This document shows, in pieces, positions 20,802 to 42,528 of a stretch of DNA of 43,979 bases; position 1 is the stretch's first letter, and each line of letters starts with the position of its first letter. The notes beneath the pieces were generated by a model. It was not told the origin of the DNA. It saw only the letters and a program-made list of their open reading frames with translations, and made no database searches. The DNA comes from a virus: the IMG/VR virus record IMGVR_UViG_3300046011_003387, positions 1-43,979 of that record, one strand, 5' to 3'. The translations under genes were made by a program, and so were the position numbers.

Positions 20802-23800
20802 ATGGCAGAATCAAAAAATATATTTTTAAAATCTAAAATGAATAAAGATTTCGATAATCGTCTTTTACCAGAAGGCGAATATCGAGATGCATTAAATATA
20901 TCTGTTGGTAAATCTGAAAGCCAAAATGTTGGGTCTTTACAGAATATACTTGGAAATCAAGTTTTACAAAAACCATCTGGTACTGGTACGGTAAATTTTG
21001 AAGAGGACACTACTTTAGAGTGTATAGGCTTTGTAGTAGATAATGAAAAAAATAGAATCTATCAATTCTTAACAAATTACACAGATGGTAATCCATCATT
21101 AAATCAATTACCACCAGACAACAGAACTATGAAGATCTCTGTTTACGATGCAAACAATAGCGGTAATCCATATACTTCATTAGTCGAAGGAACGTTTCTT
21201 AACTTCTCTACAACCAATATAATAACTGGAGTTAATATTCTTGAGAACTTATTGTTCTGGACTGACAATAGAAACCAGCCTAGAAAGATAAATATTGATA
21301 GTGCACTAGCAAATTCTGCAGAATCATCAACACCTTATTATACTAATTCAGAGCAATTATCTGTAGCAAAATATGCTCCATTTAAATCACCGTTATTATA
21401 TAGCGAAGTAAATAATATTGACGTAATAAACGCTGGTATATATGGAGGAGATAATACAAGGTTAGAAATATTAACAGAAGATATACAAAATTTAGGCTTG
21501 ACTATTGGATGCCAACTGATTAGTGAAGGGTTTGATATTTCGCAAGGGGATTCGGCTATAGTTTTTAATATACTTGAAGCATCTGCAACCACATCTTACG
21601 TATACATTACAGGTATTTGGTCTATAACAGCTCCAACAACGCTAGGTTTTTATAAGTCATCTATGCAGACAGATGCAACTGCAGCGGCATTTAGTGGAAA
21701 CAATAACTTCTTACAAGATAAATTTATAAGATTTAGCTATAGATTTAAATTTGATGATAATGAGTATTCATTAATGGCTCCATTTACACAGCCAGCATTT
21801 ATACCTAGGCAGAAAGGCTATTTTGTTAATGGCAATGAGGAAGCAGCATATAGATCAACTGTTTTAGAATGGATGGAGAACAGCATTAATGAGGTTGGTT
21901 TGTTTATTGAATTGCCAGACAATACAAATAATATATTTAATAACTACAAGATTAAAAGTATAGATATACTATATAAAGAATCCGACTCATTAGCAGTTAA
22001 AGTAGTTGAAACAATTGATATAGCTAAGGTACAATTACAGTTCCCGGATACTAATCTGTACTCATACAAATATAGATCTCAAAAACCTAAGAAAACATTA
22101 CAAGAGGCAGAAACGCTAAGAGTATCGGACAAAGTTCCAGTTAGAGCTTTAGCACAAGAAGTTTCAGGTAATAGAATAATTTATGGTAATTTTGTTAATC
22201 AAAATACACCGCCGGCAAATATAGACTATAATATAACGGTAATTGATAAAGACGTTCCATTTACACAGTATGTAGCATGGGCGGAATACCCTAGTCATAC
22301 GCTAAAAGAAAATAGAACATACCAAGTGGGCTTTGTTTTATCTGACAAGTTCGGCAGAGAGTCTTCAGTTATATTGTCTTCAGCTGAGCCATTTACTTCA
22401 GGAGAGGCTACTTCATATAGTGCATCGTCAATATTTGTTCCATACAAAAATGAGCAAACTATAAATGATGTTAGGCAATGGCTAGGCAATGAGCTTATTG
22501 TTATATTGAATAACGAGATAGCATCGTCTAAAGATGAAGCAACAGGTACACCAGGTTTATATGCAACTGTTTCCGGTGCAATTGAGAATAGCAGCGAAGG
22601 ATTCCAAATAGTAAGTGGAAGTATAGTTGGCAATGACTATACATTTGAATTACCGCCATTGCCATTAGCACCTGGCGACCCGCAGCCGCAGGTTAATATT
22701 CCTGTTGAGGGTGGGTTTTTAAGAGGCAAATATAGAGATTATGTTAAGGTTACTGAGGTTATTCCAGATCCAATTATACCATCAACGTGGATAGTAACCA
22801 CTGAATATCCCATTAATGATTTATACTTACCTAATGAAGATAATGATCCTGACGTAAAGTATTCTTATGCGATAAACGAAGGTGGCTGGTACTCATATAA
22901 GATAGTGGTAAAACAACAAGAACAGGAATACTATAATGTATATGTTCCTGGTATGCTTGCGGGTTACCCAAATCAAACAGTTGAAACATTTCCAGATAAT
23001 GAAGACACTACTACTTGTCATTTTGTTTCTATAAATGATAATATAAATAAAGTTCCTAGAGATTTATCCGAGGTAGGACCTAACCAAACACAATACAGGA
23101 GTAGCGCGCAGTTATGGACTAGAGTTGCAAATAATTTAGCAGATGACAACGCACAATACTACCCTACAACACAATCTGAGGTTGTTAATACAATTGCTCC
23201 AGCTACAGATTTGAATTTTTTACCAATAAGCACAACAAATCCAATAGCAACTTCTTCAGATAATTTTTATCAATTTGATACATCTCCATTAATAAACAGA
23301 GTTTCTACAGCGGCTCCGGTAGGTGTTACAGCTGCTACTATGGCGCCTGTTCTTGGTGTATTTGAAACAGAACCTGTATCATCTGCGTTGGATATATTTT
23401 GGGAGACCTCAACAACTGGATATATATCAGACATAAATTATGATGTATTATCTGGATCAGATACTATAATCGGCACCTCCAGTTTAGACTTTTTATATAG
23501 AGAAGATCAAGAATATGATGGAGCCGGTGAAGACACTGGAGCTAGCAACAGCCCGTTTATAACAGATTACTTTTATTTTAGAGATAGCTCAGGAATACGT
23601 GTTGATGATATAGACAACTTGATTTTCACTGCAAAAGCAGGAGGGGAGATTGTTGTAGGTAAATTTGCTTTAATAAGAAATGATGTGCCTGGCGATTTCT
23701 TTGAAATGTACAGGATTAAAATATTGCAAAGCGATTATTATTTTGGCATAAATGCAGATGTTGACACGGCTTTTGAATTTATATTCAATATTACACACAC

Positions 23801-24893
23801 AGTTGGATCTGTAGTTTATAATCCTACAATATCAACAGGTATATTGTACCTTACAAATGTTGTGCCGGTAATACTAAATCCCGCAGTTGATAACGAAACA
23901 TATTATTTACCATATAATCCAGCAATTGCACCGGTGATTGACTGTGTTGGTGAAAATGGTAATGTTAGTTCCACTGAGCCTAATAGACTAGCGGATTTAT
24001 ATTGGTCATTAGAATCAAACGCATATCCATCATATTTCGGTATGGACAGTGACACGGGAGTTCTAAGATGCTTGTCAACTACTGTGCCTGGAGGAAATTA
24101 CGAATTAACAATTAAGTTGCAAGACGCTTGTAATGCGTTTGGAGTTCAATCGCCTGCTGTAGGTCCTTTATTTGCAGAACGTACGGTTTTTATAGACGTG
24201 GCTACTTTTACACAAGGCTGTTCGGAGTTTACTGGATGGATAGGCTCTCCAATTGGCGAGGAGCCGGATATCGTGTACCCGGTGCTTGTTAATGGGTATA
24301 TAAACCTTTGGAAATTGTTAAACCCAGGGGAGACAATAGTTTCTAGTACTGTAACAATGTATAAATACACAGATGAAGGAGGCAATACTTATATATTAGG
24401 GGAAGACGTTGTACAGGATCCCTTAGCGGTTGTTTTTCCACAAGGAGCCTTATACACAGGTAATGGTAATTTTAATGGCGTTGTGCGCTTAACTCCTACG
24501 TTGGCTTTCTCGCCTGTAGCTTTAGACCTATTTTTTCAGGGAGAAATAACAACTTCTGAAGGCAGACCTGTTTTCGTTGACTTCTTTATAGAAGGAGAGA
24601 TTACCGGGCCATATGCGTCGGCTAGTACATCTTGTACTATTTCGTTAGATCCCCCTGGTCCGCCGTATGTGCCTCAAACGCCGGCAGGGTTTACTATATT
24701 TAATAATTCAAATTTACCTGTTGTATTTTCAGGATTAGCTGCTGATGGTGAAACAATAATAGGAGGTACGATAGCCGCTGGCGGAAACGCTAAAAGCATC
24801 AGTCAAGGCGGAACCTATTTAGAGGTTAGAGAAGATAGTATAACCGCTACTGGAGCAGTTGGAACAGATGTTATAATTACATATTACCCTTAA
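20802..24893 (+). CDS. Large tail nozzle / tail-stabilisation-like protein
   Basis: The 1363-residue product starts with KSKMNKDFDNRLLPEGEYRD and ALNISVGKSE, a block I recall at the start of podophage nozzle or tail-stabilisation proteins (gp12/P22 gp10-like beta-propeller proteins). The first ~560 residues are repeated beta structure. Later parts look like inserted modules: near residues 1027-1130, SDTGVLRCLSTTVPGGNYEL and IKLQDA resemble a cadherin/Ig-like repeat, and the last 75 residues are Gly/Thr-rich beta. It probably forms the tail exit tube with outward-facing binding modules. Length is well above classical nozzles (about 800 residues), in line with extra domains. No enzymatic motif is seen. 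Confidence 0.65.
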   Translation: MAESKNIFLKSKMNKDFDNRLLPEGEYRDALNISVGKSESQNVGSLQNILGNQVLQKPSGTGTVNFEEDTTLECIGFVVDNEKNRIYQFLTNYTDGNPSLNQLPPDNRTMKISVYDANNSGNPYTSLVEGTFLNFSTTNIITGVNILENLLFWTDNRNQPRKINIDSALANSAESSTPYYTNSEQLSVAKYAPFKSPLLYSEVNNIDVINAGIYGGDNTRLEILTEDIQNLGLTIGCQLISEGFDISQGDSAIVFNILEASATTSYVYITGIWSITAPTTLGFYKSSMQTDATAAAFSGNNNFLQDKFIRFSYRFKFDDNEYSLMAPFTQPAFIPRQKGYFVNGNEEAAYRSTVLEWMENSINEVGLFIELPDNTNNIFNNYKIKSIDILYKESDSLAVKVVETIDIAKVQLQFPDTNLYSYKYRSQKPKKTLQEAETLRVSDKVPVRALAQEVSGNRIIYGNFVNQNTPPANIDYNITVIDKDVPFTQYVAWAEYPSHTLKENRTYQVGFVLSDKFGRESSVILSSAEPFTSGEATSYSASSIFVPYKNEQTINDVRQWLGNELIVILNNEIASSKDEATGTPGLYATVSGAIENSSEGFQIVSGSIVGNDYTFELPPLPLAPGDPQPQVNIPVEGGFLRGKYRDYVKVTEVIPDPIIPSTWIVTTEYPINDLYLPNEDNDPDVKYSYAINEGGWYSYKIVVKQQEQEYYNVYVPGMLAGYPNQTVETFPDNEDTTTCHFVSINDNINKVPRDLSEVGPNQTQYRSSAQLWTRVANNLADDNAQYYPTTQSEVVNTIAPATDLNFLPISTTNPIATSSDNFYQFDTSPLINRVSTAAPVGVTAATMAPVLGVFETEPVSSALDIFWETSTTGYISDINYDVLSGSDTIIGTSSLDFLYREDQEYDGAGEDTGASNSPFITDYFYFRDSSGIRVDDIDNLIFTAKAGGEIVVGKFALIRNDVPGDFFEMYRIKILQSDYYFGINADVDTAFEFIFNITHTVGSVVYNPTISTGILYLTNVVPVILNPAVDNETYYLPYNPAIAPVIDCVGENGNVSSTEPNRLADLYWSLESNAYPSYFGMDSDTGVLRCLSTTVPGGNYELTIKLQDACNAFGVQSPAVGPLFAERTVFIDVATFTQGCSEFTGWIGSPIGEEPDIVYPVLVNGYINLWKLLNPGETIVSSTVTMYKYTDEGGNTYILGEDVVQDPLAVVFPQGALYTGNGNFNGVVRLTPTLAFSPVALDLFFQGEITTSEGRPVFVDFFIEGEITGPYASASTSCTISLDPPGPPYVPQTPAGFTIFNNSNLPVVFSGLAADGETIIGGTIAAGGNAKSISQGGTYLEVREDSITATGAVGTDVIITYYP

Positions 24894-24903
24894 AATAAAC
24901 GAA

Positions 24904-26529
24904 ATGGCAGCAGCAATAGAGGTAAAATTCTTTAATTCATACTTATTAAAAAGAATAAAGTCAATCCAACCCGTAAGCCCTATAACTATACCAGAGGCCG
25001 AAGGAGATACTTATAGCTTTTCAGAGGGAGATAGTGTGTTTTTATATACTCCAGACAGTGGAACATTGCCTACTGAAATAGGCGCTGGACAAGAATTAAC
25101 GTACACGCAGGATGGTATTGAATATAGTTTTATTATTATCGGATGGGAGGATATTGGAGGAGGTGTATTTAAGATATACTTAAATAAAGCAATAACTTCG
25201 GATAGTTTTGACAATACAACTATTCCTTTAATTGAATTAAATTTTGGAGAAATAATAGACTTTAATTATATACCAGGAGGTCAGGGATACACTAGTGATC
25301 CAGCTAAAGATTGGTATATAGAAGAATCTAGAATACGTGGGGGTTATAACAATACTTCAACAGATTATGGCGTTAGAGCCTATATAGTTGAAGAATCAAC
25401 AACAAGACAGAAGAGACTTAGCTCTCTAATATACTCTGGTATTTTCAACTCTAGAACAGGCGTTAACAATACAAACCAGTTTTCCGTAGCAGAAGATATT
25501 ACAAGAACATTGGACCCAGCACAAGGATCAATACAGAAGCTATATTCAGAGGATACAAACTTAATTATATTCCAAGAATTAAAAGTAAGCAGAGCTCTTA
25601 TAGATAAGAACGCCATTTATTCGGCTGAAGGAGAACCAATTACAACATCATCACTTGACGTTATAGGCCAGGTACAAGCTTACTCCGGTAACTACGGTAT
25701 TAGTACAAATCCTGAAAGCTTTGCGGTTTACGGGTATAGAAAGTACTTTGTTGACAAAAACAAAAACGTAGTGCTTAGACTTTCACAAGATGGTATTACT
25801 GAAATATCGGGTAATGGCATGGTTGATTACTTCAGGGATGTAATAGCTATAACAGAAGATACTGGTAAGATAGTTGGATCTTGGGACATGCATAATAAAT
25901 TATATACCGTATCTATTCAAACACCTGCAAACAGTATTAATCCACAATTCCATACTTTATCTTTCGATGAAGATTCATTAGGATGGACTAGTAGATTCTC
26001 TTTTAAACCAGACTTTGGTTTTAGTCTTAGAAGTGATTACTTCACCGCTTTTGAAGGTAATATATGGAAGCATTATTCAACAGGAGTGCCATATTGTAAT
26101 TTTTACGGGAATCAATATTTATCCAGTGTAACTGTGGTTATGAATCCAGACCCGTCATATTCTAAAACATTCCAGACTGTGAACTACGAGGGATCACCAG
26201 GGTGGGCTTTAACTGATATATTTACAGATTCAAGTATTGGTATTCCAATAACGTCAGCATCGTCTCCTACGAGCTTAGCGGGGTTAGAAAATCAATTGTT
26301 CTTGAATAACTTTAAAGCAAAAGAAAACAAATACTTTGGCAATATAGTTAACACAACATTGGCAGCTAGCGGAGAGGTTACTTACGGACAATCAATATCT
26401 GGTATATCTGGATTTTATATGATAGGAACATTTACATTCCCAGATCCATTTCCGTCGCGTATTGACTATAGTAGACCGGCAACATTATTTGCGGTCTCTT
26501 CAACATTTGCACAATCATTAAGTAATTAA
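24904..26529 (+). CDS. Second tail/nozzle-type structural protein
   Basis: The 541-residue product is rich in beta structure with repeated Tyr/Gly/Ser strands. Segments such as SFAVYGYRKYFVDKNKNVVL and DVIAITEDTGKIVGSWDMH resemble propeller blades of nozzle proteins. It directly follows the 1363-residue nozzle-like protein and may be the other half of a split nozzle, or a separate tail protein. The leader to the next gene is ten bases. The function is assigned by context and blade-like pattern. Confidence 0.55.
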   Translation: MAAAIEVKFFNSYLLKRIKSIQPVSPITIPEAEGDTYSFSEGDSVFLYTPDSGTLPTEIGAGQELTYTQDGIEYSFIIIGWEDIGGGVFKIYLNKAITSDSFDNTTIPLIELNFGEIIDFNYIPGGQGYTSDPAKDWYIEESRIRGGYNNTSTDYGVRAYIVEESTTRQKRLSSLIYSGIFNSRTGVNNTNQFSVAEDITRTLDPAQGSIQKLYSEDTNLIIFQELKVSRALIDKNAIYSAEGEPITTSSLDVIGQVQAYSGNYGISTNPESFAVYGYRKYFVDKNKNVVLRLSQDGITEISGNGMVDYFRDVIAITEDTGKIVGSWDMHNKLYTVSIQTPANSINPQFHTLSFDEDSLGWTSRFSFKPDFGFSLRSDYFTAFEGNIWKHYSTGVPYCNFYGNQYLSSVTVVMNPDPSYSKTFQTVNYEGSPGWALTDIFTDSSIGIPITSASSPTSLAGLENQLFLNNFKAKENKYFGNIVNTTLAASGEVTYGQSISGISGFYMIGTFTFPDPFPSRIDYSRPATLFAVSSTFAQSLSN

Positions 26530-26539
26530 ATTAAATAAA

Positions 26540-26947
26540 ATGGAATTAACAGTAAGAGCATTACAAGAATCAGATTGGGATACTTTACAATCATGGTGGA
26601 CTAAATGGAATTGGCCAACAGTTATAAAAGAAATGTTGCCATTAAATGGTTGTGGTGGATTAATAGTTTATAAAGGAAATATTCCTATTGTTGCTGGGTT
26701 TTTATATTTAACAAACTCTAATATAGCTTGGATGGAATGGATTATTTCAAATAAGGATTATAAAGAGAATGATAGAAAAGAAGCATTGGAAACTTTAATA
26801 TTAGAACTAGAAAATATTGCTTTAAGTGTTGGGAAAGATATAATATTTAGTGTAAGTAAAAGTAAAAGTTTAATAAACATCCATAAAGAATTAGGATATA
26901 CGATTGATGAAAGTCCATCGTATGAAATTTCAAAAAAATTGATATAA
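26540..26947 (+). CDS. GNAT-family acetyltransferase-like protein
   Basis: The 135-residue product fits the GNAT layout: LTVRALQESDWDTLQSWW at the N-terminus, a central strand pair with GGLIVYKGNIPIVAGFLYLT and IAWMEWIISNKDYK, a helix ALETLILELENIALSVG, and a C-terminal IHKELGYTIDE like the last GNAT strand-helix. The Arg/Gln-x-x-Gly-x-Gly/Ala acetyl-CoA loop is not clear, so activity is uncertain. It sits among virion genes, two bases before the internal virion protein gene, which suggests a virion-assembly or host-modifying role. The substrate cannot be told. Confidence 0.6.
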   Translation: MELTVRALQESDWDTLQSWWTKWNWPTVIKEMLPLNGCGGLIVYKGNIPIVAGFLYLTNSNIAWMEWIISNKDYKENDRKEALETLILELENIALSVGKDIIFSVSKSKSLINIHKELGYTIDESPSYEISKKLI

Positions 26948-26948
26948 T

Positions 26949-27695
26949 ATGGCAGCAATAACAGCAGCGGTTGGGGCAGGAGTCTCCTTAATAGGCGGAG
27001 CCGTAGGAGCTCACCAGGCAAGTCAAGCAGCAAAAGGAGCACGTAATGATGCAAAGCGTGCGAAAGCGGAGATGGATGCAATTAGAGCAAACAGACAACC
27101 AATAACAAATCCTTATGCCTCAACAATGGATATGAGTGCTCTAGCGAGTGATTTATCCGGAATGATAACAAATCCTTATGCAAATTTAGGTGTAGCAACG
27201 CAGGCGGCAGAAATGCAAGCCGAACAAGCAGATATGGCGTTGGCTAATACATTAGATACATTAAGAGCAACAGGGGCTGGTGCGGGTGGAGCGACCGCTT
27301 TAGCGCAGGCAGCATTACAAAGCAAAAAAGATATTTCTGCTAGTATAGAACAGCAAGAAGCAGCTAATGAAAAACTACGTGCTCAAGGAGAAATGGAACG
27401 TAATCAAATGAAAATGGCTGAACAACAAAGATTACAATCTATAAAAATAAGTGAAGCACAAAGAGTACAAGGGGCTGAGGCAGCCGGGCAACAATTTATG
27501 TTCGGAGCTAGAGAAGATAGAACTAATGCAGACTTAGGGCAGCAGGCTGGACAATATGCTCAGGCTCAACAAAATCAAGTATCTGCCAACGCAGCACAGG
27601 CGGCTGCATGGGGTGGAGCAATACAAGGAGTTGGATCAGCATTAGGCGGACTGGCCGGCGGATTAGGAGGAACACCAGCAGCAAAAACAGAATAA
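26949..27695 (+). CDS. Internal virion (ejection) protein, T7 gp14-like
   Basis: The 248-residue product begins with a Gly/Ala-rich hydrophobic segment (AAITAAVGAGVSLIGGAVG), followed by long Ala/Gln/Glu helical stretches (for example AAEMQAEQADMALANTLDTL) and a Gly-rich hydrophobic end (ALGGLAGGLGG). This is the pattern of T7 gp14-type ejection proteins that enter the cell envelope during DNA entry. It is the first of three genes ordered small, medium, giant, as in T7 gp14-gp15-gp16. The identity rests on layout and composition. Confidence 0.7.
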   Translation: MAAITAAVGAGVSLIGGAVGAHQASQAAKGARNDAKRAKAEMDAIRANRQPITNPYASTMDMSALASDLSGMITNPYANLGVATQAAEMQAEQADMALANTLDTLRATGAGAGGATALAQAALQSKKDISASIEQQEAANEKLRAQGEMERNQMKMAEQQRLQSIKISEAQRVQGAEAAGQQFMFGAREDRTNADLGQQAGQYAQAQQNQVSANAAQAAAWGGAIQGVGSALGGLAGGLGGTPAAKTE

Positions 27696-27709: not shown

Positions 27710-29305
27710 ATGAGTGCATACGATAATCCAGCAATAATAAAAGACGATACTGCAATGATTTGGGCTCAAGGCCTAGGCAGTGTTGGCCAAGCGTTTACAG
27801 AAAGTTTTAATATCGCAAGGAAGGAAAGAGAAGCCAAAGAGAAAGAAGCTAGAATAGAAGCAGAAAGGAAAGCTAAAGAAGATAAACAGGACGCTATAAA
27901 TAAACAAGTATTTAATAGTGAGCAAAACTATAGATACCAGACTAGAGTAGCCCAGATCAACGATGGTTTAGTTAAAGCCGGTGTTAGCCCAGATGGCACT
28001 GCCCTAGTTAATGACTATAGCATTAATACTAGTAAGGCGGAAGCTGAAGCAAACTTTAATACCGCATTTGAAGTATTAAGCAAAGAGCAACAAGATAAAA
28101 ATAGCTTATATGCATCTCAGCGAGCAAAAGGAGAGCAAAACTTAACTAGGGTTGCTGGAGGATTGTACTCACAAGCTCAAGCTATTAGAAATGGGGATAT
28201 TAATCAAACAAATATTGCTAATATAAAATTTAAAGGTAATAACATTTTAGATCAAACATTGAATAGAATTACTACTTATTCATTGGCATACCCGGACGAG
28301 GATAAAACTACAAAAACTTTAGATTACGATGCCAATGGGGATCCATCAGATATTACTTTACGTGTAGACACCAAAATAGGAGATCGTAATACTCTTATAA
28401 AAACGTTCAGAGAAACAAACCCTGGAGTAAGCCAGGAAGAAATAGAATCAAAAATTACCGAAGGTATTAATAAGGGCTTTATTACCGCGACAGGCGAAAC
28501 AGGGAGTGAACAATATACTCTTAACTTCAAAAAGAAAATTAACTCAGATTATGACGGAACGCTATATACCACAATACCTGAAATTAAGTTTGGGGATGTA
28601 CCTGTTACAGCTGGAGTATATAGTAAAGATAGCGATACGGAGGTGTCAACTATTTATATGCTTCCTACTGAATTTGCGGACGTAGCCGGTAACGCTAAGT
28701 TAGGTAGAGAACAAGGAACTGTTAAATACCAAAGAACGCCAGTCGATATAAACGCAATAAGATTCGCTGTGAGGCCATCGTTATTAGCAAAAGCAGAAGG
28801 TCTAATAGCGTCTTATTTTCAAGATCCAGATACTGCAGATGGTATACTACAAAAATTAGGTTTTGGGACTAATTATGCATCCAAGAATTTTGCTACAAAA
28901 GATCTTAAAGAACAAGCGGAGATGTTGGCTAAACAGATGGAAGAGAGCGAAATTAAAAATATAATTTCAAAATCTCAACTTAAACAAATTGATGGACAGT
29001 ATTATAAAATGGATGCTGAAAATATCAAAATATTTGATAACGCATCAAGTAGCTCTCGCTCTAGTTCAACAGGTGGACCAACAAAAACAGAGTTGAAAAA
29101 AGAGCAAGATTTAAAAGGCGTAATAAAGCAAGTATGGGATATGCAAAATACAAGCACTGCTGATCTAGATTATGATGGGCGCAAAGTATCACACAGTGGA
29201 GGAGAGTTTATTATACAGACTCCTGGTATAAATAAAGACATGCCTATTAAAACGAAAGAAGACGTTATTAAATATTTAAAAACAGGAGCATATACTCCAA
29301 AATAA
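27710..29305 (+). CDS. Internal virion (ejection) protein, T7 gp15-like position
   Basis: The 531-residue product has a helical, charged N-terminal part (EREAKEKEARIEAERKAKED), a long mixed middle without membrane segments, a Ser-rich linker (ASSSSRSSSTGGPTK) near 445-460 and a basic C-terminal ~70 residues. It lies between the gp14-like protein and the giant protein and is six bases before the latter. Its place and size fit the middle ejection protein that forms a tube with the others. No enzyme motif is seen. Confidence 0.6.
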   Translation: MSAYDNPAIIKDDTAMIWAQGLGSVGQAFTESFNIARKEREAKEKEARIEAERKAKEDKQDAINKQVFNSEQNYRYQTRVAQINDGLVKAGVSPDGTALVNDYSINTSKAEAEANFNTAFEVLSKEQQDKNSLYASQRAKGEQNLTRVAGGLYSQAQAIRNGDINQTNIANIKFKGNNILDQTLNRITTYSLAYPDEDKTTKTLDYDANGDPSDITLRVDTKIGDRNTLIKTFRETNPGVSQEEIESKITEGINKGFITATGETGSEQYTLNFKKKINSDYDGTLYTTIPEIKFGDVPVTAGVYSKDSDTEVSTIYMLPTEFADVAGNAKLGREQGTVKYQRTPVDINAIRFAVRPSLLAKAEGLIASYFQDPDTADGILQKLGFGTNYASKNFATKDLKEQAEMLAKQMEESEIKNIISKSQLKQIDGQYYKMDAENIKIFDNASSSSRSSSTGGPTKTELKKEQDLKGVIKQVWDMQNTSTADLDYDGRKVSHSGGEFIIQTPGINKDMPIKTKEDVIKYLKTGAYTPK

Positions 29306-29311
29306 TTATCT

Positions 29312-32300
29312 ATGCTAGAATACGAGCTTGACGGAAAAATATATACAGAACAGGATTTAATTAATGAGGCCGGAGGTAAAGATAAACTTTCGGCTTACAT
29401 TAAAAGTAAGGGTTTTAAAGTAGCTACTAAAAAGGCAAAACCATCAACTAAAACAACTTTAACAGATTCACAATTTGGATTTGATAAAGAGGGCAAATAT
29501 ACACAACAAAAAGAGCAATTTTCTGAACTAAATAAAACTAAAAAGAAAAAGCCAACAGCTATAACTCCAGGTGTAAATGATTTTGGAGCTAAAATTGAAA
29601 ATGAGTTAAAGCCATTTAACTTTAAGGAAACCGGTAAAACAAAAGAGTACAAAGCCATTGAAGCGGCAAAAGCGCAAGAGGCTGAGAAAGCTAAAAATGA
29701 AATAAAACCAAGGTTAAGACCATTAGAAATACAAAAAGAAAAAGCAAAAAAAGAAGAAAGCGGGTTTTTAAATTATCTAGGAGAAAGTTTTGACCAAGGT
29801 ATTAGCACATTAGTTCAGTCTTTTTATAAAATACCTGAGTTTACCTATGATGTTGCTGCTACTATAACAAATCCTATTGGGCGCGCAATTGGCAAGCTAG
29901 GCGGAGTTGAAGTTGAAGATGCTTCATCAGAGCGTATAATGAATACACTTGGAATTAAAAACGTTCCTGCTGAAATTTTGCAAAAGAGAATAAACGAATC
30001 AAATAAAATAATAAAAGACTATAGTGATAAAAACGGTGCAGACCCATTAACAGCAATAGAGAATGGCAATTATTTAGGAGCCGCTAAACTAGTAGCCGGA
30101 GGAACAGTCCAATCATCACCAATGATGGCCGCTGCGATATTAAGCGGTGGTAGTTCATCTGCTATGGCTGGAATTGCTACATCTTCCGCTATATCAAAAG
30201 CGGAACAGTTAAAAATTGAAAATCCAGAAATGGATGTACAAACTAGAACAACTAATGCCGCAGTTGCCGGCGTTCTTGAAGGCTATTTAGGCCAATTGTT
30301 TACAGGTGCTTCAGGAGCAGTTGTAAAGAAAATAATAATGGACAAAGGCGCTAAAGCAGGAGCAAAAATTATTTCTAATGGCATCGTAGGAACGGTAGAA
30401 AAAGCTATTGAGAAAAGCCCAATGATTGGTGTGCTTGGAGAAATAGCGGAAGAAAGTGCTGTTGAGTTGGGGAATCAATTAAATGACATTAATTCTGGTA
30501 TTAGAACCGAGTTAGATTACCGACAAATAACAAATGCCGGTATTATAGCTACTGGCATGGCTGGAACTAATACTGTGCCTATATATGCTGCTAAGGGTTA
30601 TATGAAGGCAACTGAGTATAACAAAGTAAAACAAGTTAACAAAGAAATAAACGGACTTACAACTCAATTATCCAATCCATATATAAGCGCCCCAGATAAA
30701 AAAATAATTGCAGCAAGAGTCAATAGGCTTATCGGTGAGAATAAAGCTATTGTAGGTACCAGTTTAGAGAAGGTAGAGGCTTTGCCAGAAAATGTAAAAA
30801 CAGAGCTTAATACATTAAATACTGGGCTAGATGATTTAAAAAGTAAATACTTGGAATTAGTTGATAATACTGACTTACCTGTTGATGTCAAAAAAGCAAT
30901 GGGCAGTGAATTAGCATTACAAGCAAAGGAAATACAAGATAGAAAAACCAGTATAATTGAAGGTAATTATATATATGAAGATTTTAAAAAATTACCAGAA
31001 GCAGAACAGAATAGAATAAAAGTTTTGGCTAATGAGACATTGGTAGCTGATTCTGAATTAACAGACAACCCTAAAACAAAGTTTAATGAGGATGAAATAA
31101 AAAGGGAGGCTATTAATATTTATAATGCGGAAATTAGAGCAGGTGATGTTGAAACGGATGTGCAGAGGACTAAAACCGCTGCTAAAGCTTTAGGATTATC
31201 CGAAGATCTTGACATGCCAGAACTAAACACCGCTAATGATGTAATAACCTATCTAAGTGAAAATACTAACCTAGATGAAAACACTATAGACGAATTAGCT
31301 GATTCTTACGGAGCATTTATACCATTATCAAATGGCAAAGAGGCTCTAATTATAAATAAAGAGGCGGCTAATATGGATCAAGTAGTTACTACAGGCCAGC
31401 ATGAGTTTCTACATAAACTTATATATAAAGCAGTAAAGGATAATCCAAATCTACAAAAGAAAATAGGGACGGATTTATATGAGCATTTGGAAAAGTACAT
31501 TGGCACCGAAGATTTTAATAACACAGAATTTAAAAGCAGATACGACACCTATAAAGCCGACTTTGAATCTACTAAAGCAACTTTAGAAAATAAAGTAAAA
31601 AAAGCAAAAGACTATTTTGAAAGAGGTCTTATAAAAGAAGAAAGATATAACCAAGCAATTACAGAGGCTGACCAAGCAGTTGCATCTGCAGAAGGTAAAT
31701 ACCTAGAAGAAACATTGCCTTTATTATCGGAATCATTAACAAAAGGAGACATTAAGTATAACGAAACATTTTTTACAAAAATTGGCGATATATTACGTAG
31801 AGTATTTCAGAAATACGGTTTAAGTAAAGTAAAATTTAATACCGGAAAAGATGTATTTAATTTTGTTAAAGATTATAATAAAAGCTTTGAGAAAGGGCAA
31901 TTTACAAAAGCGTTTAAAGCGTTGGCAAAAGAAGGCCAATATAAAGGTTCTATTGCTAAAGGTAACGCGCCAGTTAGAGCTAAAGCTAAAACCACTGTGA
32001 AGAAAAGCCAACCATTATCTCAAGTTGAAAGTTTAAAAAAACAGCTTAAAGATATACAAGATAATGAGTTTGATTATGATCCTGACGATTTTGATCAACA
32101 AGTTGCTAATCTACAGAATAAAATTAAAAAAGCAGTTGAAAAAGAAAAAACAGCTCCTCCTGTGGAAACCAAAAAGGAAGTTACAGAAGAAGAAGCTGAT
32201 AAGGAAATAATAAAAAATGAAAGATCTTCATTGTCTTCTGATAAAGTACAAAAAATATATGACGACAAAGGAGTAAATGGTGCGCAAGACATTATAGACC

Positions 32301-35300
32301 TATTTAGACCTATTACTAAGAAATTAGTAAACAGAAGAATGGATGCCCCAGGATTTGATAGAGAGTTATTAACCGATGAGATAGAAACCGGCACAGGCGG
32401 TATTTTAGATTTAATAACAAAATACAAGCCAGAAAGCGGTATACCTTTAGCTGCGTTTATTAACAAGTATTTGCCGGTTAGAGCTATTGCGGCATCTAGA
32501 AGAGTACTGGATAAAGACTTTAGTAAAGATGTCACTGAGGAGAAAGGTTTAATGGCTGAAGAAACTGTTTCTGAGATAAAAGAAAAACCAAAATATAAGA
32601 ATGCATTAGAATCGAATGTTTTTGACCCAGAAGCGCTAGAAACAGCCAAAAACAAGATCATAACAGTAGTAAGAACGTTAAAATCTAAAATAGATGAACC
32701 AATAAGTTTAAACCGCACTGTTACGCCTATAATAGCTGAAATTAGAGATGAGATTGGTAAGCAATTGGATATTGATCTTAAGACCGCAATGGGCGGTAAA
32801 AAAGATGATCAACTTAAGAAATGGTTGGTAAAGAATAAGCGCTATGTCTTAGAGAACATGACTACAACATGGTTAATGGGTAAGGATGGACAAGGAGGTA
32901 TCCCTCAAGCTATTCAAAAGCAGATTGATGGAAGATGGGTTAATTATCCTGATTGGGTTGGTAAAAAAATTGATAGGGAAACCACTTCAACTGATTTAGC
33001 AGGTAGGACGTCTGGAGCAGAGCTAGTTAGACGTTTACCTAGTGTGGCTAATAATGTTTCTGAAGCAGATTATCTTTCACAAATACTAGAGCCTAGCGGT
33101 AATCCTATTAGAGGTAGAAAAGAATCCTTAGCTAAAGCAATAGCGGAAGAAGCTGCTTTTGATATAATTAACAAAGATTTTGAAGACGGGGGCCCAATTT
33201 TTGAGGCATTTAAAGCAAATCAGGAAAGGCTTGGCGTTTACTTAAAGGATAATGTTACTAATGAATTCGCGAAGCAAGCCGAAAGAGGTAATGTTAAATT
33301 CTCTAAAAAATTAATTAAAGGATTCGAGATATCCCAGAATAAGTTAGGCAAAGATATATCTAATGCTGAAACAATTACAGACGAAATAAAAGTTATTAAT
33401 AATTGGATTGCTAGCGATGGCAGATCTATAAGAACTTTGGCATTTGAAATTGGTAAAGGGTTAAAACAATTTACCACAAATAGAGGTTTGTTTGAAAATA
33501 TAATTTTACCAATAATTAAAACGTATTCAAAATTTGAGGGTATCGTTGGGGAAAATTCATATAAATTAGGAAAAGCTGAAAAAGGAGAATCTATATACTT
33601 TGGCGAAACTAAAGTCCCTCTATGGGCAGATACCACCGTTATAAAGAAAAATTGGGAAGGATTTGTCAATAAAATTGACGAAGAAGCAGTAAAAGCAACA
33701 AATGAGCTAATTAATGTTGTCAAGTATTTTAAAGACAATAATCAAACGAAAGAAGATTTTGAATCATATTTAGCTTTGTTGAGATGGGATCAAAGAAGTT
33801 TAATTAGAAAAGTGTCAAAATCAGGCATTGGGGTATTAGAATTAAATAGGAGCCAAGAACCAAGGCTTGAGCACAATCCGCCGGTACAAAATATTGTGGA
33901 AAAAACTATAGATTTATTTGAAGGCAAAATAAGCGAAAAAGAATTCAGACAATTTATAGATAAAGCGAAAGTAAACTTAGTGCCTAAAGCACTTGAGGAT
34001 ATGCTCCCTAATTATATAGAGAGTGAAAATAGAATGTATGATACTCAGGCTGTTTTGTATCTTCAAGATTTAATAGACAAAGGATTTAAAATTACAGGCT
34101 TAGAAAAAGAGTACGGATCAAAAGCAAAGTTTAATTCATTAGTAAAATTAGCAAAATCAGGTGTAACTTCAAAAGCAAATATTCAAAATTCTAACAATAT
34201 AATCGCTATTAACTCATCATTACCAATTAAATATTCTAAATCACCAAAAGGAATTTCTGTTTTTGATTTCGATGACACTGTTGGTTTAACAAAAGGTAAT
34301 GTGCTGTACATGATGCCTGATGGTTCAACTGGCAAGTTAAACGCTGAAGAATTTGCTAAAGAAGGTTCCAATCTTTTATCAGAAGGAGCGGTATTTGATT
34401 TCTCTGAATTTAGCAAAGTAGTCGAGGGCAAACCGGGACCTATGGTTGAGAAAATGAAAAAGATGATTGGTAAATTTGGGCCAGACAATTTCTTTATTCT
34501 AACAGCTAGACCCGCTGATGCTGCTGTGCCTATCCACGAATTTCTATCATCGATAGGTATTAATATACCGTTAGAGAATATAACCGGATTAGGTAACAGT
34601 GCTGCGCAAGCAAAAGCCGACTGGATAGTAGGCAAAGCAGCTGAAGGATATAATGATTTTTACTTTGCAGATGACGCACCTCAAAATGTTAAAGCAGTTC
34701 AAGACGCTCTAGATGTTCTTGATGTTAAATCAAAAATACAACAAGCTAAACTTAAATTTAGTAAATCAATGTCTGCACGTTTCAATGAAATCATTGAGGA
34801 GAATAAAGGCGTTGAAAGCTATAAGGTATATTCTGATATTACCGCTAGAAGACGAGGTTTAAAGAAAAACAGGTTTGATCTTTATGTCCCGCCATCTGCA
34901 GCAGACTTTGAGCTATTACTTTATAACTTTATGGGAAAAGGAGCATTAGGTGAATCGCAGAAAGAATTTTTTGAAGATGCTTTGATAAAGCCATATATAA
35001 ACGGAGTGAACTTAATGGATGCTGTTAGACAATCTATAAAAAGAGAGTATAAGGCATTGTTAAAGTCATTCCCTGAGATTAAAAAAGAACTTGAAAAGTT
35101 AACACCAAATAAAGATTTTACTTATGATCAAGCGATGCGTGTTGCTATTTGGGATCAATTTAATGTTGAAATTCCAGGCTTGTCTCAAAGAGATAGAATT
35201 TACTTGTCAGATCTTATTAATAATGACCCAGATCTTGCTGCTTTTAAGGACGGCTTGATTGTAATGGGTAGACAAAAAGACGGGTGGTTGCCTCCAGGTA

Positions 35301-37027
35301 CTTATTGGGATGCTGATACTATTATTTCTGATTTGTACAATATAACAGAAGGATCAGGTAGAAAAAAATTCTTAGGTGAGTTTATTGAAAATGTAGAAGA
35401 GTTATTTGGAACGTGGTCTGAAGGAATGCTTGTTGGGCCAAATATGAATAAGATTGAAGCCGTTTACGGAACAAATGTTAGAGAAGCGTTAGAAGATTCT
35501 ATATACAGAATGACTAATGGTAAGAACAGAAGCTTTGGACAAGATAGAGAAACAACAGCTTGGAACAGTTGGGTAAATGGATCTACGGGGGCAATCATGT
35601 TCTTAAACACTCGTTCGGCTGTACTACAGATGTTAGGAGCAGTTAACTTTTTGAACTGGAGAGATAATAATCCTTACAATGCTGGTAAAGCATTCCTAAA
35701 CCAACCACAATATTGGAAAGACTTTGCTCGTATATGGAACTCTGATAAGTTAAAAGAAAGACGTGGAGGTTTAAGAGAAGATGTGGCGTCTGCTGAGATT
35801 GCTAACGCTGCCGCAGGAAGTAAGAATAAAGTAGTGGCAGTAACATCGTACTTATTGAAGATAGGATATACACCTACACAATTAGCAGATAGTTTCGCTA
35901 TCGCTTCTGGAGGTGCTCCATTCTACAGAAACAGGATTAACTCTTATTTGAAAGAAGGATTAACAGAGCAAGAAGCAGAAAACAAAGCGTGGCAAGATTT
36001 CTCAAAAATATCGGATGAAACGCAGCAGTCAGGTGATCCAAAAGATATATCAAAACAACAGTCAAGTGCTGCTGGTAGATTACTATTGGTTTTCCAAAAC
36101 TTTACAATGCAACAATCTCGTATCGTTAAGAAAGCTGCTTTAGACCTTAAGAATGGTAGGGGTGATGCTAAAACAAACATAGCTAAGATAGCGTATTATT
36201 TAGCGGTACAGAATATAATGTTCTCGACGTTACAGCAAGGCATCTTTGCCACTTTCTTTGATGATGATGAGGAAGAAGATAAGAAAGCTAAAACAAAAAA
36301 AGAAGCTGCTTATGATGTTGCTAATGGCGTGCTTGATAGTATACTTAGAGGTACAGGATTCCTTGGAGGTGTTGTTTCAACTTTAAAGAATACAGTTGTT
36401 AAATACCTTGAGGAACGAGCTAAGAAACAAAAAGCTGAGTACGCTAAAGTTGTACTGGAATTTGCTAATATGTCGCCTCCTATTGGATCTAAATTAAGGA
36501 AGACTTATTCTTCATTACAACAGACAAAGTACGATAAAGACTTAATAGAAGAAAGAGGGTGGGGTGTTATGCAAGATGGTAGAGTTCATTTAGGGCCAAT
36601 GTATTCTGTAACCGGTAAATTAGTTGAGGTAGGAACTAACTTTCCTATGGACCGATTAGTTAACAAGGTAGAGAATGTTTCTCAAGCATTTAACTCTGAA
36701 AACACCACAATGCAACGAATTGCTACCGGATTAGGTTACTCTCCGTGGACTGTTGGTATTGAAGGAACTAAAGGAGATATACTTATAAAAGAGGCCGCTA
36801 AAGAAAAGCGCAAGGAAGAAGGCACAATAAAAGCCAAAGAGACTAGAAAAGAAAATGCTGAAAGATTAAAAGATAGCATTAAAAGTTTGTCTCCGGAAGA
36901 GAGAATGAAGTATAGACGTGCAAAAGCTCTAGAAAAAAGAGAAAAAAGAATAGAAAAAGCAAAAGAAAAAAGAGAAGAAAGGCGCAAGAAAATGGAAATG
37001 ATAAACAAGTTAAACGCAAACAAATAG
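29312..37027 (+). CDS. Giant multidomain internal virion / polyvalent protein (HExxH, sigma-2-like, HAD)
   Basis: The 2571-residue product holds several modules. The N-terminus (1-40) is a small domain with YELDGKIYTEQDL. Gly/Ala-rich hydrophobic stretches lie near 255-350. An HExxH site QHEFLH (His697, Glu698, His701) fits a zinc metallopeptidase. Residues about 985-1075 match sigma-70 region 2 (LLTDEIETGTGGILDLITKY, PESGIPLAAFINKYLP). A HAD phosphatase domain follows: FDFDDT (Asp1652/Asp1654), LTARP (Thr1731), a Lys before it in KADW, and ADD (1787-1788). Three K(F/Y)SK linkers lie at 1329, 1640 and 1815. Near 2290-2317 a hydrophobic helix pair and then a very basic coiled-coil tail follow. 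It is last in the ejection-protein run, like T7 gp16, so it probably enters the cell with the DNA. Functions of the modules are inferred. Confidence 0.8.
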   Translation: MLEYELDGKIYTEQDLINEAGGKDKLSAYIKSKGFKVATKKAKPSTKTTLTDSQFGFDKEGKYTQQKEQFSELNKTKKKKPTAITPGVNDFGAKIENELKPFNFKETGKTKEYKAIEAAKAQEAEKAKNEIKPRLRPLEIQKEKAKKEESGFLNYLGESFDQGISTLVQSFYKIPEFTYDVAATITNPIGRAIGKLGGVEVEDASSERIMNTLGIKNVPAEILQKRINESNKIIKDYSDKNGADPLTAIENGNYLGAAKLVAGGTVQSSPMMAAAILSGGSSSAMAGIATSSAISKAEQLKIENPEMDVQTRTTNAAVAGVLEGYLGQLFTGASGAVVKKIIMDKGAKAGAKIISNGIVGTVEKAIEKSPMIGVLGEIAEESAVELGNQLNDINSGIRTELDYRQITNAGIIATGMAGTNTVPIYAAKGYMKATEYNKVKQVNKEINGLTTQLSNPYISAPDKKIIAARVNRLIGENKAIVGTSLEKVEALPENVKTELNTLNTGLDDLKSKYLELVDNTDLPVDVKKAMGSELALQAKEIQDRKTSIIEGNYIYEDFKKLPEAEQNRIKVLANETLVADSELTDNPKTKFNEDEIKREAINIYNAEIRAGDVETDVQRTKTAAKALGLSEDLDMPELNTANDVITYLSENTNLDENTIDELADSYGAFIPLSNGKEALIINKEAANMDQVVTTGQHEFLHKLIYKAVKDNPNLQKKIGTDLYEHLEKYIGTEDFNNTEFKSRYDTYKADFESTKATLENKVKKAKDYFERGLIKEERYNQAITEADQAVASAEGKYLEETLPLLSESLTKGDIKYNETFFTKIGDILRRVFQKYGLSKVKFNTGKDVFNFVKDYNKSFEKGQFTKAFKALAKEGQYKGSIAKGNAPVRAKAKTTVKKSQPLSQVESLKKQLKDIQDNEFDYDPDDFDQQVANLQNKIKKAVEKEKTAPPVETKKEVTEEEADKEIIKNERSSLSSDKVQKIYDDKGVNGAQDIIDLFRPITKKLVNRRMDAPGFDRELLTDEIETGTGGILDLITKYKPESGIPLAAFINKYLPVRAIAASRRVLDKDFSKDVTEEKGLMAEETVSEIKEKPKYKNALESNVFDPEALETAKNKIITVVRTLKSKIDEPISLNRTVTPIIAEIRDEIGKQLDIDLKTAMGGKKDDQLKKWLVKNKRYVLENMTTTWLMGKDGQGGIPQAIQKQIDGRWVNYPDWVGKKIDRETTSTDLAGRTSGAELVRRLPSVANNVSEADYLSQILEPSGNPIRGRKESLAKAIAEEAAFDIINKDFEDGGPIFEAFKANQERLGVYLKDNVTNEFAKQAERGNVKFSKKLIKGFEISQNKLGKDISNAETITDEIKVINNWIASDGRSIRTLAFEIGKGLKQFTTNRGLFENIILPIIKTYSKFEGIVGENSYKLGKAEKGESIYFGETKVPLWADTTVIKKNWEGFVNKIDEEAVKATNELINVVKYFKDNNQTKEDFESYLALLRWDQRSLIRKVSKSGIGVLELNRSQEPRLEHNPPVQNIVEKTIDLFEGKISEKEFRQFIDKAKVNLVPKALEDMLPNYIESENRMYDTQAVLYLQDLIDKGFKITGLEKEYGSKAKFNSLVKLAKSGVTSKANIQNSNNIIAINSSLPIKYSKSPKGISVFDFDDTVGLTKGNVLYMMPDGSTGKLNAEEFAKEGSNLLSEGAVFDFSEFSKVVEGKPGPMVEKMKKMIGKFGPDNFFILTARPADAAVPIHEFLSSIGINIPLENITGLGNSAAQAKADWIVGKAAEGYNDFYFADDAPQNVKAVQDALDVLDVKSKIQQAKLKFSKSMSARFNEIIEENKGVESYKVYSDITARRRGLKKNRFDLYVPPSAADFELLLYNFMGKGALGESQKEFFEDALIKPYINGVNLMDAVRQSIKREYKALLKSFPEIKKELEKLTPNKDFTYDQAMRVAIWDQFNVEIPGLSQRDRIYLSDLINNDPDLAAFKDGLIVMGRQKDGWLPPGTYWDADTIISDLYNITEGSGRKKFLGEFIENVEELFGTWSEGMLVGPNMNKIEAVYGTNVREALEDSIYRMTNGKNRSFGQDRETTAWNSWVNGSTGAIMFLNTRSAVLQMLGAVNFLNWRDNNPYNAGKAFLNQPQYWKDFARIWNSDKLKERRGGLREDVASAEIANAAAGSKNKVVAVTSYLLKIGYTPTQLADSFAIASGGAPFYRNRINSYLKEGLTEQEAENKAWQDFSKISDETQQSGDPKDISKQQSSAAGRLLLVFQNFTMQQSRIVKKAALDLKNGRGDAKTNIAKIAYYLAVQNIMFSTLQQGIFATFFDDDEEEDKKAKTKKEAAYDVANGVLDSILRGTGFLGGVVSTLKNTVVKYLEERAKKQKAEYAKVVLEFANMSPPIGSKLRKTYSSLQQTKYDKDLIEERGWGVMQDGRVHLGPMYSVTGKLVEVGTNFPMDRLVNKVENVSQAFNSENTTMQRIATGLGYSPWTVGIEGTKGDILIKEAAKEKRKEEGTIKAKETRKENAERLKDSIKSLSPEERMKYRRAKALEKREKRIEKAKEKREERRKKMEMINKLNANK

Positions 37028-37094: not shown

Positions 37095-37298
37095 TTATTC
37101 TTCAGTTTCTTCATCCAGAGGCTTAACTCTTTCAGTTACAACTTTCATAGCTTCATCATATCCCGGCATTTCTTTCATAACTTGATATGTTCCTACCGCC
37201 ATTGTTTTTGTATTTTCAATCTCCTTCAATACAAACTGAGCGATCCTTGATAGAGCCTCTATCTTATTCTGCATTTCTATTAATTTATTTTCTTTCAT
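37095..37298 (-). CDS. Short helical protein of unknown function
   Basis: The 67-residue product is charged and helical (KLIEMQNKIEALSRIAQFVL, AMKVVTERVKPLDEETEE). It overlaps the start-side gene (the oxygenase) by four bases (ATGA) and is the last gene of the - strand block, ending two bases from the bidirectional terminator. I recognise no family. Confidence 0.6.
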   Translation of the reverse strand: MKENKLIEMQNKIEALSRIAQFVLKEIENTKTMAVGTYQVMKEMPGYDEAMKVVTERVKPLDEETEE

Positions 37299-37858
37299 TT
37301 TTTTATTTTATAAAACATTACGAATACAACTCTACTTTCTGTAAACTCATTTGGATACTTACTATGGAAGTAATTACACGGATAAGATATTAACCTATTC
37401 TTTTTATGCCCTATAACAGACTTTAAATACCATAGATCGAGGTCATTAGCATCTTCATTTAGCAATCTATTTTGCTCTGTCACAGTGATATTAGAAAGCT
37501 TATCACCATGTTTTTTGTGCTCCCAAAAAGCTGTGCCATTCAACCCCTCTTGTTTAGTTTCTGATAGATATAAAACACAAGCCCTATCCGGTTGTTGGCC
37601 TTCTATTATAGAATCGTTGTGTATACGCCAGTCATTATCTTGACCTTCTTTTGCTTCACGAATAAAATATAGTATAGGCTCAATTCTATTGCTCTCTAAA
37701 TCTTCAATTTCAAATTTTATAATATCAGCAATAGGCTTTGGAACATTCTTAACCCAGAAGGATTTTCCAGGAGTTTTTAGTTCCTGGAATTCATCCTTAT
37801 TTGAGCTTAATAATTCAATTAAATTATCATCTAAAAAATCATCTTTTATATAAATCAT
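37295..37858 (-). CDS. 2-oxoglutarate/Fe(II)-dependent oxygenase
   Basis: The 187-residue product has the iron-binding set of the cupin-type 2OG oxygenases. WRIHNDS gives His80 and Asp82 (HxD), FHSKYP gives His165, and ESRVVFVMF gives Arg176, the usual 2OG-binding Arg about ten residues after the distal His. ACVLYLSE precedes the jelly-roll centre. These enzymes hydroxylate protein side chains or nucleic acids, and phages often carry them near DNA-metabolism genes. The substrate cannot be predicted. It follows the exported-protein gene and overlaps the last gene by four bases. Confidence 0.85.
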   Translation of the reverse strand: MIYIKDDFLDDNLIELLSSNKDEFQELKTPGKSFWVKNVPKPIADIIKFEIEDLESNRIEPILYFIREAKEGQDNDWRIHNDSIIEGQQPDRACVLYLSETKQEGLNGTAFWEHKKHGDKLSNITVTEQNRLLNEDANDLDLWYLKSVIGHKKNRLISYPCNYFHSKYPNEFTESRVVFVMFYKIKK

Positions 37859-40556: not shown

Positions 40557-41153
40557 TTATAATTTATTATATTTAAGGTTTTCTATAGCAACTTTGCGAT
40601 TTGTTTTTCTTTTATTTGTATATGATGGATCAATAATTCCGTTTAATCTTTTTATAGTGCCTTTACTAATACCAGTGTATCGTTGGCACTCTGCAATAGA
40701 ACAATATTCAATTCCTTCCCATACAACTTTTTTTCTAGCAGGTTGTGATATTTTATTTTTTAAAATAGACTCTTTAGTATGTTTCATACCAACCCTTTTT
40801 TTATGCCCATTTTGAGGCATACTTTTGTCTTTGTTAGGATGTATTTTACCATACATTGGGTTTTTGCTGCCGGCTCTATCATATGGTTTATCAGTGCAGT
40901 CACCACCTCCCTCACATACATTAGTTAAATTATTTAATCCTATTAAGTTTATTAAAATTTCCTCAATACTATAAGCTTGTTGTTCTGACAGATTACCAAT
41001 TAATTTAATAACTTCCCAATTAGGGTATTTATTTATAGTATTGTTCCAATGAAGACTTCTATAAGCTTTTGAATACGCTCTTTTTCCGCATCCTTTGCCT
41101 ATATAAAAAATCCCATTTTCGTTGGTGTGCAAGTATATATAATATTTATCCAT
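40557..41153 (-). CDS. GIY-YIG homing endonuclease with NUMOD modules
   Basis: The 198-residue product has the GIY-YIG nuclease domain: YYIYLH (Tyr5-Tyr7), FYIGKG (17-21), Arg25 and the Glu64/Glu65 pair in YSIEEILI. A NUMOD3-like segment follows at about 90-130 (GSKNPMYGKIHPNKDKS). A DNA-binding HTH-like module is at 145-175 (YCSIAECQRYTGISKGTIKR). Such free-standing enzymes cut one strand or both at a target in phages lacking them and spread by repair. It lies between the resolvase gene and a small gene and overlaps none. Its start is 11 bases past the resolvase stop. Confidence 0.9.
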   Translation of the reverse strand: MDKYYIYLHTNENGIFYIGKGCGKRAYSKAYRSLHWNNTINKYPNWEVIKLIGNLSEQQAYSIEEILINLIGLNNLTNVCEGGGDCTDKPYDRAGSKNPMYGKIHPNKDKSMPQNGHKKRVGMKHTKESILKNKISQPARKKVVWEGIEYCSIAECQRYTGISKGTIKRLNGIIDPSYTNKRKTNRKVAIENLKYNKL

Positions 41154-41632: not shown

Positions 41633-41987
41633 CTATTGTGAATGTATAAAGACAACTACCATGACCACGCTTATTCTTCAAATGATTTTTCTTTTTTTTT
41701 GAAAAAAACTTTTGAGATACTAACATAGCATCTATAACATCAATGTCGTTTATAGATTGCAGCAATGCTTTTTCTTCACGTAGTGTAGTTATTTCTTCTT
41801 TTAATCGTTGAAGATACAAGGTAGCATCCATAAGTTCTGTTTGAATTTGCTTTAAGAAAAACGTTAATCCACTTCTATCTTCTTCTAATGTTGTACCATA
41901 CTTATCGATGCCCGCCTCCGATCTACTAACCATCTTATTAATTACGTTTAATAATACAGGATCATTAACATTTATTGTTACTTGCAT
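41625..41987 (-). CDS. Small NTP-PPase/MazG-like protein, longer paralogue
   Basis: The 120-residue product begins with INVNDPVLLNVINKMVSRSE, GIDKYGTTLEEDRSG and IQTELMDATLYLQRL, the helical pattern of small MazG-like all-alpha NTP pyrophosphohydrolases. About 23 of 54 positions match the 68-residue protein at 43042-43248, so the two are paralogues. After residue 65 it has an extra coiled coil and a basic end with KKKKNHLKNKRG read through a run of nine As (9 Ts on the + strand at 41692-41700), so the tail may be frameshifted. It overlaps a homing endonuclease gene by 23 bases. Catalysis is not certain, since only part of the MazG acidic set is seen. Confidence 0.65.
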   Translation of the reverse strand: MQVTINVNDPVLLNVINKMVSRSEAGIDKYGTTLEEDRSGLTFFLKQIQTELMDATLYLQRLKEEITTLREEKALLQSINDIDVIDAMLVSQKFFSKKKKNHLKNKRGHGSCLYTFTIDD

Positions 41988-42528
41988 AAAATTTACTTAT
42001 TATTTTTGATTGTTTATAATTATTTTTTACCCATCTGCTTATTGTACTTTGAGAAACGTTAAAATATTTTGAAGCTTCAATACCGCTATTAAACACCATA
42101 CCATCAATCTCATACATAAAACATCTACTTAAGCTCATTTTTTTCTTTGATTCTTCGCTAACTTTTTTTCCTAAATGAGCCTTACTAATCTTTTCTTTTG
42201 TAATTTCTGAAACAGGAGCTCCATATCTTGGGTTGTTTATTCCTTGCATATTTCTACCTATTTTGTATTTAGCTAATCCGCCAGGAACAATATTAACGAG
42301 ATTGTTTAGTCCTATAGTTTCTATTATTATTTCTTCTAACTCGTAAGCACCCTCCTCTGTTAAATTTTCTGCAAGTTTAATGTAATGCCAATTGCTTTCT
42401 TTAATTTTATTTATAAAAGTTTTGCATCTATTTGTTTTATTATATATTCTTGTTCCTGCTCCTTTGCCTATATAAAATACTACATTATTACTGTAATACG
42501 CATACACGTAAAATCTATTATCATTCAT
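41965..42528 (-). CDS. GIY-YIG homing endonuclease, second copy, with NUMOD modules
   Basis: The 187-residue product has FYVYAY (Tyr7-Tyr9), FYIGKG (18-23), Arg27 and Glu65/Glu66 in AYELEEI, the GIY-YIG catalytic set. A NUMOD3-like part is at about 93-135 (GINNPRYGAPVSEITKEK, then AHLGKKVSEESKKKMS) and a NUMOD1-like HTH at 147-172 (FNSGIEASKYFNVSQSTISR). It is diverged from the other GIY-YIG protein at 40557. It lies between two paralogous small NTP-PPase-like genes, so it may have entered that locus as a homing element. It overlaps the downstream NTP-PPase-like gene by 23 bases. Confidence 0.9.
   Translation of the reverse strand: MNDNRFYVYAYYSNNVVFYIGKGAGTRIYNKTNRCKTFINKIKESNWHYIKLAENLTEEGAYELEEIIIETIGLNNLVNIVPGGLAKYKIGRNMQGINNPRYGAPVSEITKEKISKAHLGKKVSEESKKKMSLSRCFMYEIDGMVFNSGIEASKYFNVSQSTISRWVKNNYKQSKIISKFYASNNKC

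Follow-up and report, generated by a model that had tools for sequence, protein, structure and literature searches.

The 43,979-nucleotide stretch of viral DNA analysed here in its entirety (the window; positions 1 to 43,979 of IMG/VR record IMGVR_UViG_3300046011_003387) encodes a giant protein of 2571 residues that is probably a virion protein of the polyvalent, ejection type from a Bacteroidota phage, with kin among the Flavobacterium elemo phages, the Pervagoviridae and Pachyviridae and, by cassette order, the Crassvirales. We favor this reading because of the protein's homology to the virion protein gp101, its crAss-like gene order, its conserved catalytic residues, structural matches to enzymes and sigma factors, purifying selection, module swapping among relatives, and matches to predicted polyvalent proteins in BFVD. 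A preliminary description made from the sequence had recognized an HEFLH motif, a sigma-2-like stretch and a complete set of HAD motifs in the 2571-residue chain; all three hold up, and are conserved across relatives beyond chance.

The TerL and portal proteins place the phage near the Flavobacterium elemo phages, MW202828, and the Cellulophaga phages phi38:1 (Pervagoviridae) and phi19:3 (Pachyviridae). The ORF of the giant protein (29312..37027, + strand) is intact, with an ATG start and no internal stop, and is the last gene of the structural block, at the end of a cassette ordered muzzle, C1, C2, giant protein; a strand switch and then an RNR gene follow on its 3′ side. Muzzle/tail proteins are encoded by two ORFs (20802-24893 and 24904-26529, together 20802..26529, +; phrog_14478, with Pfam crAss_MUZ_C at 1.5e-10 in the second ORF), a two-ORF form also present in relatives. 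Next come a 135-residue protein (p135; 26540..26947, +), which matches phi38:1 gp98 (hhalign P 7e-8) and phrog_17252 (1.5e-31), and a C1-like protein of 248 residues with a hydrophobic N-terminus (p248; 26949..27695, +), which matches phi38:1 gp99 (hhalign P 2.7e-7) and, weakly, the membrane segment of crAss001 gp45 (hhalign P 0.0015). The 531-residue protein that follows (27710..29305, +) is assigned to the C2 or phi38:1 gp100 slot by position only, with no sequence similarity found. Elsewhere, the window encodes a phage GroEL (4920-6464; phrog_5725, E 8.7e-133), also carried by the elemo phages, MW202828 and phi38:1, a BspA-type leucine-rich repeat protein (760-2955; LRR_5, E 1.4e-31), and two GIY-YIG homing-endonuclease-like genes amid other early genes (40557-41153 and 41965-42528, −). 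A 187-residue gene adjoining the giant gene (37295-37858, −) matches DUF6445 just under the cut-off, and about half of the near relatives have it alongside.

The giant protein is very probably carried in the virion, a placement made from its relatives. Its N-terminal virion module (residues 190-620; 29879..31171, +), defined by profile matches and hydropathy, is helical, with Ala/Gly-rich hydrophobic stretches at 271-289, 320-338 and 409-427. A profile of this module scores 63.9 bits against the elemo giant protein, 60.5 against phi38:1 gp101, 41.0 against the giant protein of Tenacibaculum phage Gundel_1 and 35.2 against phi19:3 gp129, the best shuffled or reversed decoy reaching 9.1 bits; hhalign with a thin N-terminal alignment missed phi38:1, the same match that hmmsearch finds far above the decoys. 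The module is thus homologous to Cellulophaga phage phi40:1 gp101 (gp101 being 99.9% identical between phi40:1 and phi38:1), which occupies the same cassette slot after gp098-gp100 and is found in virions by MS/MS, phi40:1 gp097-gp101 having been annotated from experimental proteomics of particles. In contrast to the protein described here, phi38:1 gp101 has 1691 residues, and does not match the zincin, MID or C-terminal profiles of the window. The C-terminal helical module (residues 1830-2571; 34799..37024, +) is ∼43-97% identical across relatives, and its profile scores 16.4 bits against Gundel1_74, the 2482-residue ‘structural protein’ of Gundel_1, versus 2.9 for decoys; Gundel1_74 thereby matches at both ends, with an HExxH in between, but differs in showing a weak GNAT match and no HAD match, and in having its cassette before the terminase.

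The window cassette also parallels that of crAss001, where muzzle gp44, C1 gp45, C2 gp46 and giant gp47 precede a strand switch and, further on, an RNR gene. crAss001 gp45-gp47 are virion cargo (PMC10172136), and gp47 is likewise giant and packaged, with an HEAFH motif at residue 2157. No sequence homology between the window cassette and gp46 or gp47 was found by hmm or hhalign comparison (only three gp47 relatives being available), and crAss001 differs in packaging RNA polymerase as well (gp49/gp50). In T7, the ejection proteins gp14, gp15 and gp16 are a small, a medium and a giant virion protein in a row. The preliminary description, which had compared the two smaller proteins preceding the giant one with the T7 gp14/gp15 order, was right that they precede it, but the likeness to gp14-gp15-gp16 is one of size order only and the analogy is loose; closer are the cassettes of Pervagoviridae/Pachyviridae phages, as in phi38:1/phi40:1 gp097-gp101, and, by position, the C1-C2-gp47 order of Crassvirales (crAss001 gp44-gp47). 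Its reading is partly supported: the gene belongs to a virion cassette, the protein has a syntenic homologue in phi40:1 virions, and the domain mix is of polyvalent type, ejection itself being putative.

Relatives of the giant protein are numerous in IMG/VR (187 rows of related loci, some contigs giving more than one), and identities run between ∼43% and 97%. Neither the whole protein nor any of its domains has a significant match in Pfam, PHROG, NCBIfam or PADLOC. Queried by tblastn against 50,697 phage records, the whole protein found no match, nor did its C-terminal part in phages, and the sigma-like part plus MID found a single chance match (E 8); phmmer and hmmsearch of PDB sequences gave chance matches only, and plain Foldseek of the models against PDB gave none at E<0.001. 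Two models were compared structurally, one of residues 190-1380 (the first model, of fair quality only at pLDDT 68) and one of the second half (residues 1381-2571). As to the domain searches and predicted folds that the preliminary description named as checks, sequence models match none of the domains, structure comparison by VIA-align matches HAD phosphatases and sigma factors, and the zincin is recognized from conserved residues and strand/helix order. Neither the zincin nor the MID, X and C-terminal modules had a reported PDB match, which is uninformative about their folds.

The zincin-like metallopeptidase domain (approximately residues 629-829; 31196..31798, +) contains HEFLH at 697-701, of which H697, E698 and H701 are invariant in all 62 aligned relatives within a region otherwise poorly conserved, and a third ligand, E800, that is invariant downstream in 68/68. 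By these residues, the domain is a predicted gluzincin-type zinc peptidase. An HExxH with a downstream Glu is the signature of zincins in polyvalent proteins, whose MPTase is described as carrying HExxH on one helix and a metal-binding Glu on the helix that follows (PMC5512222); the arrangement of HExxH and E800 fits this description. The predicted model shows strands and then the HExxH helix, and the elemo giant protein has a homologous zincin (25.4 bits, with decoys at or below 3.6 in the same run).

The HAD phosphatase domain (residues 1641-1820; 34232..34771, +) has all four motifs of its superfamily, D1652-x-D1654-D-T (motif I, DxD), T1731-A-R-P (motif II), K1768 (motif III) and D1787-D1788 (motif IV), with D1652 conserved in 55/55 aligned relatives, D1654 in 54/55, and T1731 and K1768 each in 58/59. 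Its predicted model has a Rossmann-type HAD fold, and nearly all leading VIA-align matches over residues 260-430 of the second-half model are HAD phosphatases, the best being the T4 Pnkp 3′ phosphatase (Z 8.5, 2.8 Å, 118 residues), followed by class B and C acid phosphatases among others. From this fold match, a nucleic-acid 3′-phosphatase is a reasonable first guess. Upstream of the HAD domain lies a variable domain X (residues 1371-1640; 33422..34231, +), delimited by alignment and swapped in relatives. A conserved [LYW]EH..P (xEHnPP, with E1520-H1521) occurs in domain X at 33869-33886 (residues 1520-1525); by this motif at most, X is possibly nuclease-like. MID (residues 1100-1370; 32609..33421, +), a conserved domain without an assigned fold directly 3′ of the sigma-like slot, is found in nearly all relatives, mostly at 40-92% identity.

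The sigma-70 region-2-like domain (residues 972-1067; 32225..32512, +) is delimited by VIA-align, hhalign and dN/dS, and its predicted model has the helical fold of region 2. Of the 50 VIA-align matches listed for the first model, about 15 are to sigma factors, covering model residues 779-881 (residues ∼968-1070 of the protein): sigma-S (Z 7.9; 3.4 Å over 91 residues), sigma-32 (Z 7.3), and sigma-A and WhiG (6-7), with an overall range of Z 6.1-7.9. Since such values are only moderate for a helical domain, the profile test matters. When the family was compared with E. coli-type sigmas by hhalign, it scored 25.7 versus 10.4 ± 1.9 (maximum 18.2) in 200 column shuffles, and residues 1019-1053 paired with sigma-S 115-149, in a register that agrees with the structural alignment; E. 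coli sigma-S, sigma-32, FliA and RpoD as single templates gave the identical register, with only sigma-S and sigma-32 outscoring unrelated proteins. With HMMER, a core profile of the sigma slot placed rpoS at 9.7 bits, barely above decoys at 8.2, and with a wider profile two decoys outranked rpoS; the sigma claim therefore rests on hhalign plus structure. As a predicted fold, sigma region 2 is a good structural call, and its role we only infer.

Whether such a fold acts in transcription is a separate matter, and we give a little under even weight to the alternative that the segment shares only the region-2 fold and serves as a helical module for DNA binding or packing, with no transcription role. 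No region 4 (the −35-binding HTH) is seen in models or searches of the giant protein, and Pfam Sigma70_r2 (PF04542) does not significantly match the segment. In the hhalign register, K1052, Y1053 and V1056 occupy the slots of sigma70 W433, W434 and Q437, positions that read the −10 element, so that most −10-reading residues are missing, and the equivalents of sigma70 F419 and Y430 remain aromatic. In distant relatives the slot before MID is kept with a very diverged sequence (pattern F[DN]P..n.sl..yi...l..R). Against this alternative, two motifs, D-x-I-E-x-G-x-x-G-[IL] and Y-x-P-E-x-G, persist throughout the nearest clade and line up with sigma region 2.2, and the segment, 60-95% identical among nearer relatives, is the most constrained part of the protein or nearly so, with dN/dS of.016-.035 in four of five comparisons (lowest or joint-lowest of the protein) and.115 in the fifth. 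The label ‘sigma factor’ goes too far for a segment with no detectable region 4 and most −10-reading residues missing.

Polyvalent proteins combine at least two biochemically unrelated domains per chain, and the giant protein carries zincin residues, a HAD fold and a sigma-2-like fold in a gene that lies beside virion genes. Like the proteins surveyed by Iyer et al. (2017; PMC5512222), it joins unrelated domains including a zincin, sits in a late-gene context and shows modular swapping. No Pfam LPD model matches it. Its structural matches in BFVD include LPD and ART-PolyVal proteins: many predicted polyvalent proteins resemble the model of residues 1381-2571, those with ART-PolyVal or LPD names at E ∼1e-8 to 1e-4. 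Zincin-bearing polyvalent virion proteins, and giant structural proteins at this genomic site, are already known. A sigma-2-like or HAD domain in a polyvalent virion protein seems new, in that the survey text contains no words beginning with ‘sigma’, ‘haloacid’ or ‘phosphatase’ (PMC5512222); no description of a packaged sigma factor was found in the literature checked, in which the combination of zinc protease, phosphatase and sigma-like piece in one virion-cargo protein is likewise not described.

Close relatives exchange the N-terminal, protease and middle modules, and keep the sigma-like, HAD and C-terminal modules. For two of them (L012 and L014), identity to the window is ∼95% over the sigma-like part and 85-89% over the HAD domain and C-terminus, but only 31-34% over the N-terminal virion module and the zincin and 21-30% over domain X. 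Among the nearest 27 relatives, two (L021, L024) have a different sequence in the sigma slot, and one (L010) has lost the HAD motifs. Longer relatives have inserts within and after the HAD domain: an ART-like domain (‘IYHGAPKGKD...’) lies inside the HAD cap in L012 (16079-17656), L027 and L007, with a sub-threshold ART-PolyVal match in L012 (E 0.079), and an extra block of ∼190 residues, GNAT-like by eye and with no Pfam match, lies 3′ of the HAD domain in L012, L014, L018, L020, L024 and L027. In L007, whose C-terminal part is 95-97% identical to the window, the giant ORF is broken between domain X and HAD (15900-15990) by a frameshift or sequencing error.

A doubtful alternative, to which we assign rather less than one chance in two, is that the chain is a polyprotein, cleaved by its zincin ahead of packaging or in the course of it, a scheme proposed for P1 DdrB, so that the domains travel separately. 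Self-processing has been proposed for zincin-containing polyvalent proteins (PMC5512222), phi46:3 has two ORFs at the position of the giant gene, and the L007 frame breaks at a domain border; but N4 vRNAP is packaged whole despite its zincin (PMC5512222), the L007 break is possibly a sequencing error, and the other 26 of the nearest relatives have single uninterrupted ORFs (four cut by a contig end). A structural or tape-measure-like protein that is not ejected, its enzyme motifs mere relics, is a very improbable reading: relatives are annotated only as ‘structural protein’, but catalytic residues are invariant, every domain is under purifying selection (dN/dS.016-.15; two nearest relatives tested), and whole domains are swapped among relatives.

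For the polyvalent, ejection-type protein that we prefer, we infer packaging, ejection and later steps from the phi40:1 proteomics, the crAss001 cargo and the N4 and P1 precedents; its protease action, phosphatase action and RNA-polymerase role are likewise putative. The protein would be made late, packaged with the C1 and C2 proteins, and leave the particle ahead of the DNA, its terminal helical modules anchoring it in the particle and carrying it across the envelope. The zincin might then cleave its own chain or host proteins, the sigma-like domain might touch host RNA polymerase (or DNA) as infection begins, and the PNKP-like phosphatase might target nucleic-acid ends or another phosphate.

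The surprise here is the sigma-like domain: the annotations of MW202828, elemo and phi38:1 include no RNA polymerase, although diverged ones are possible, and the window may be only part of its genome. We regard as unlikely the specific proposal that a phage without its own RNA polymerase packages and ejects a sigma-region-2 domain within a protease-bearing polyvalent protein, in the slot of the polymerase-associated gp47 of Crassvirales, and so redirects or blocks host RNA polymerase before phage transcription. In phages without a virion polymerase, immediate transcription is usually explained by host promoters. A sigma-like domain in the particle, if true, would be a different answer to how transcription starts, and one directly testable with a domain of ∼100 residues. 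The family as a whole has fixed terminal modules and exchangeable enzyme modules between them, including the ART-like HAD-cap insert and the post-HAD block of longer relatives; if these proteins are delivered, the family would be a catalogue of what phages send first into Bacteroidota cells.
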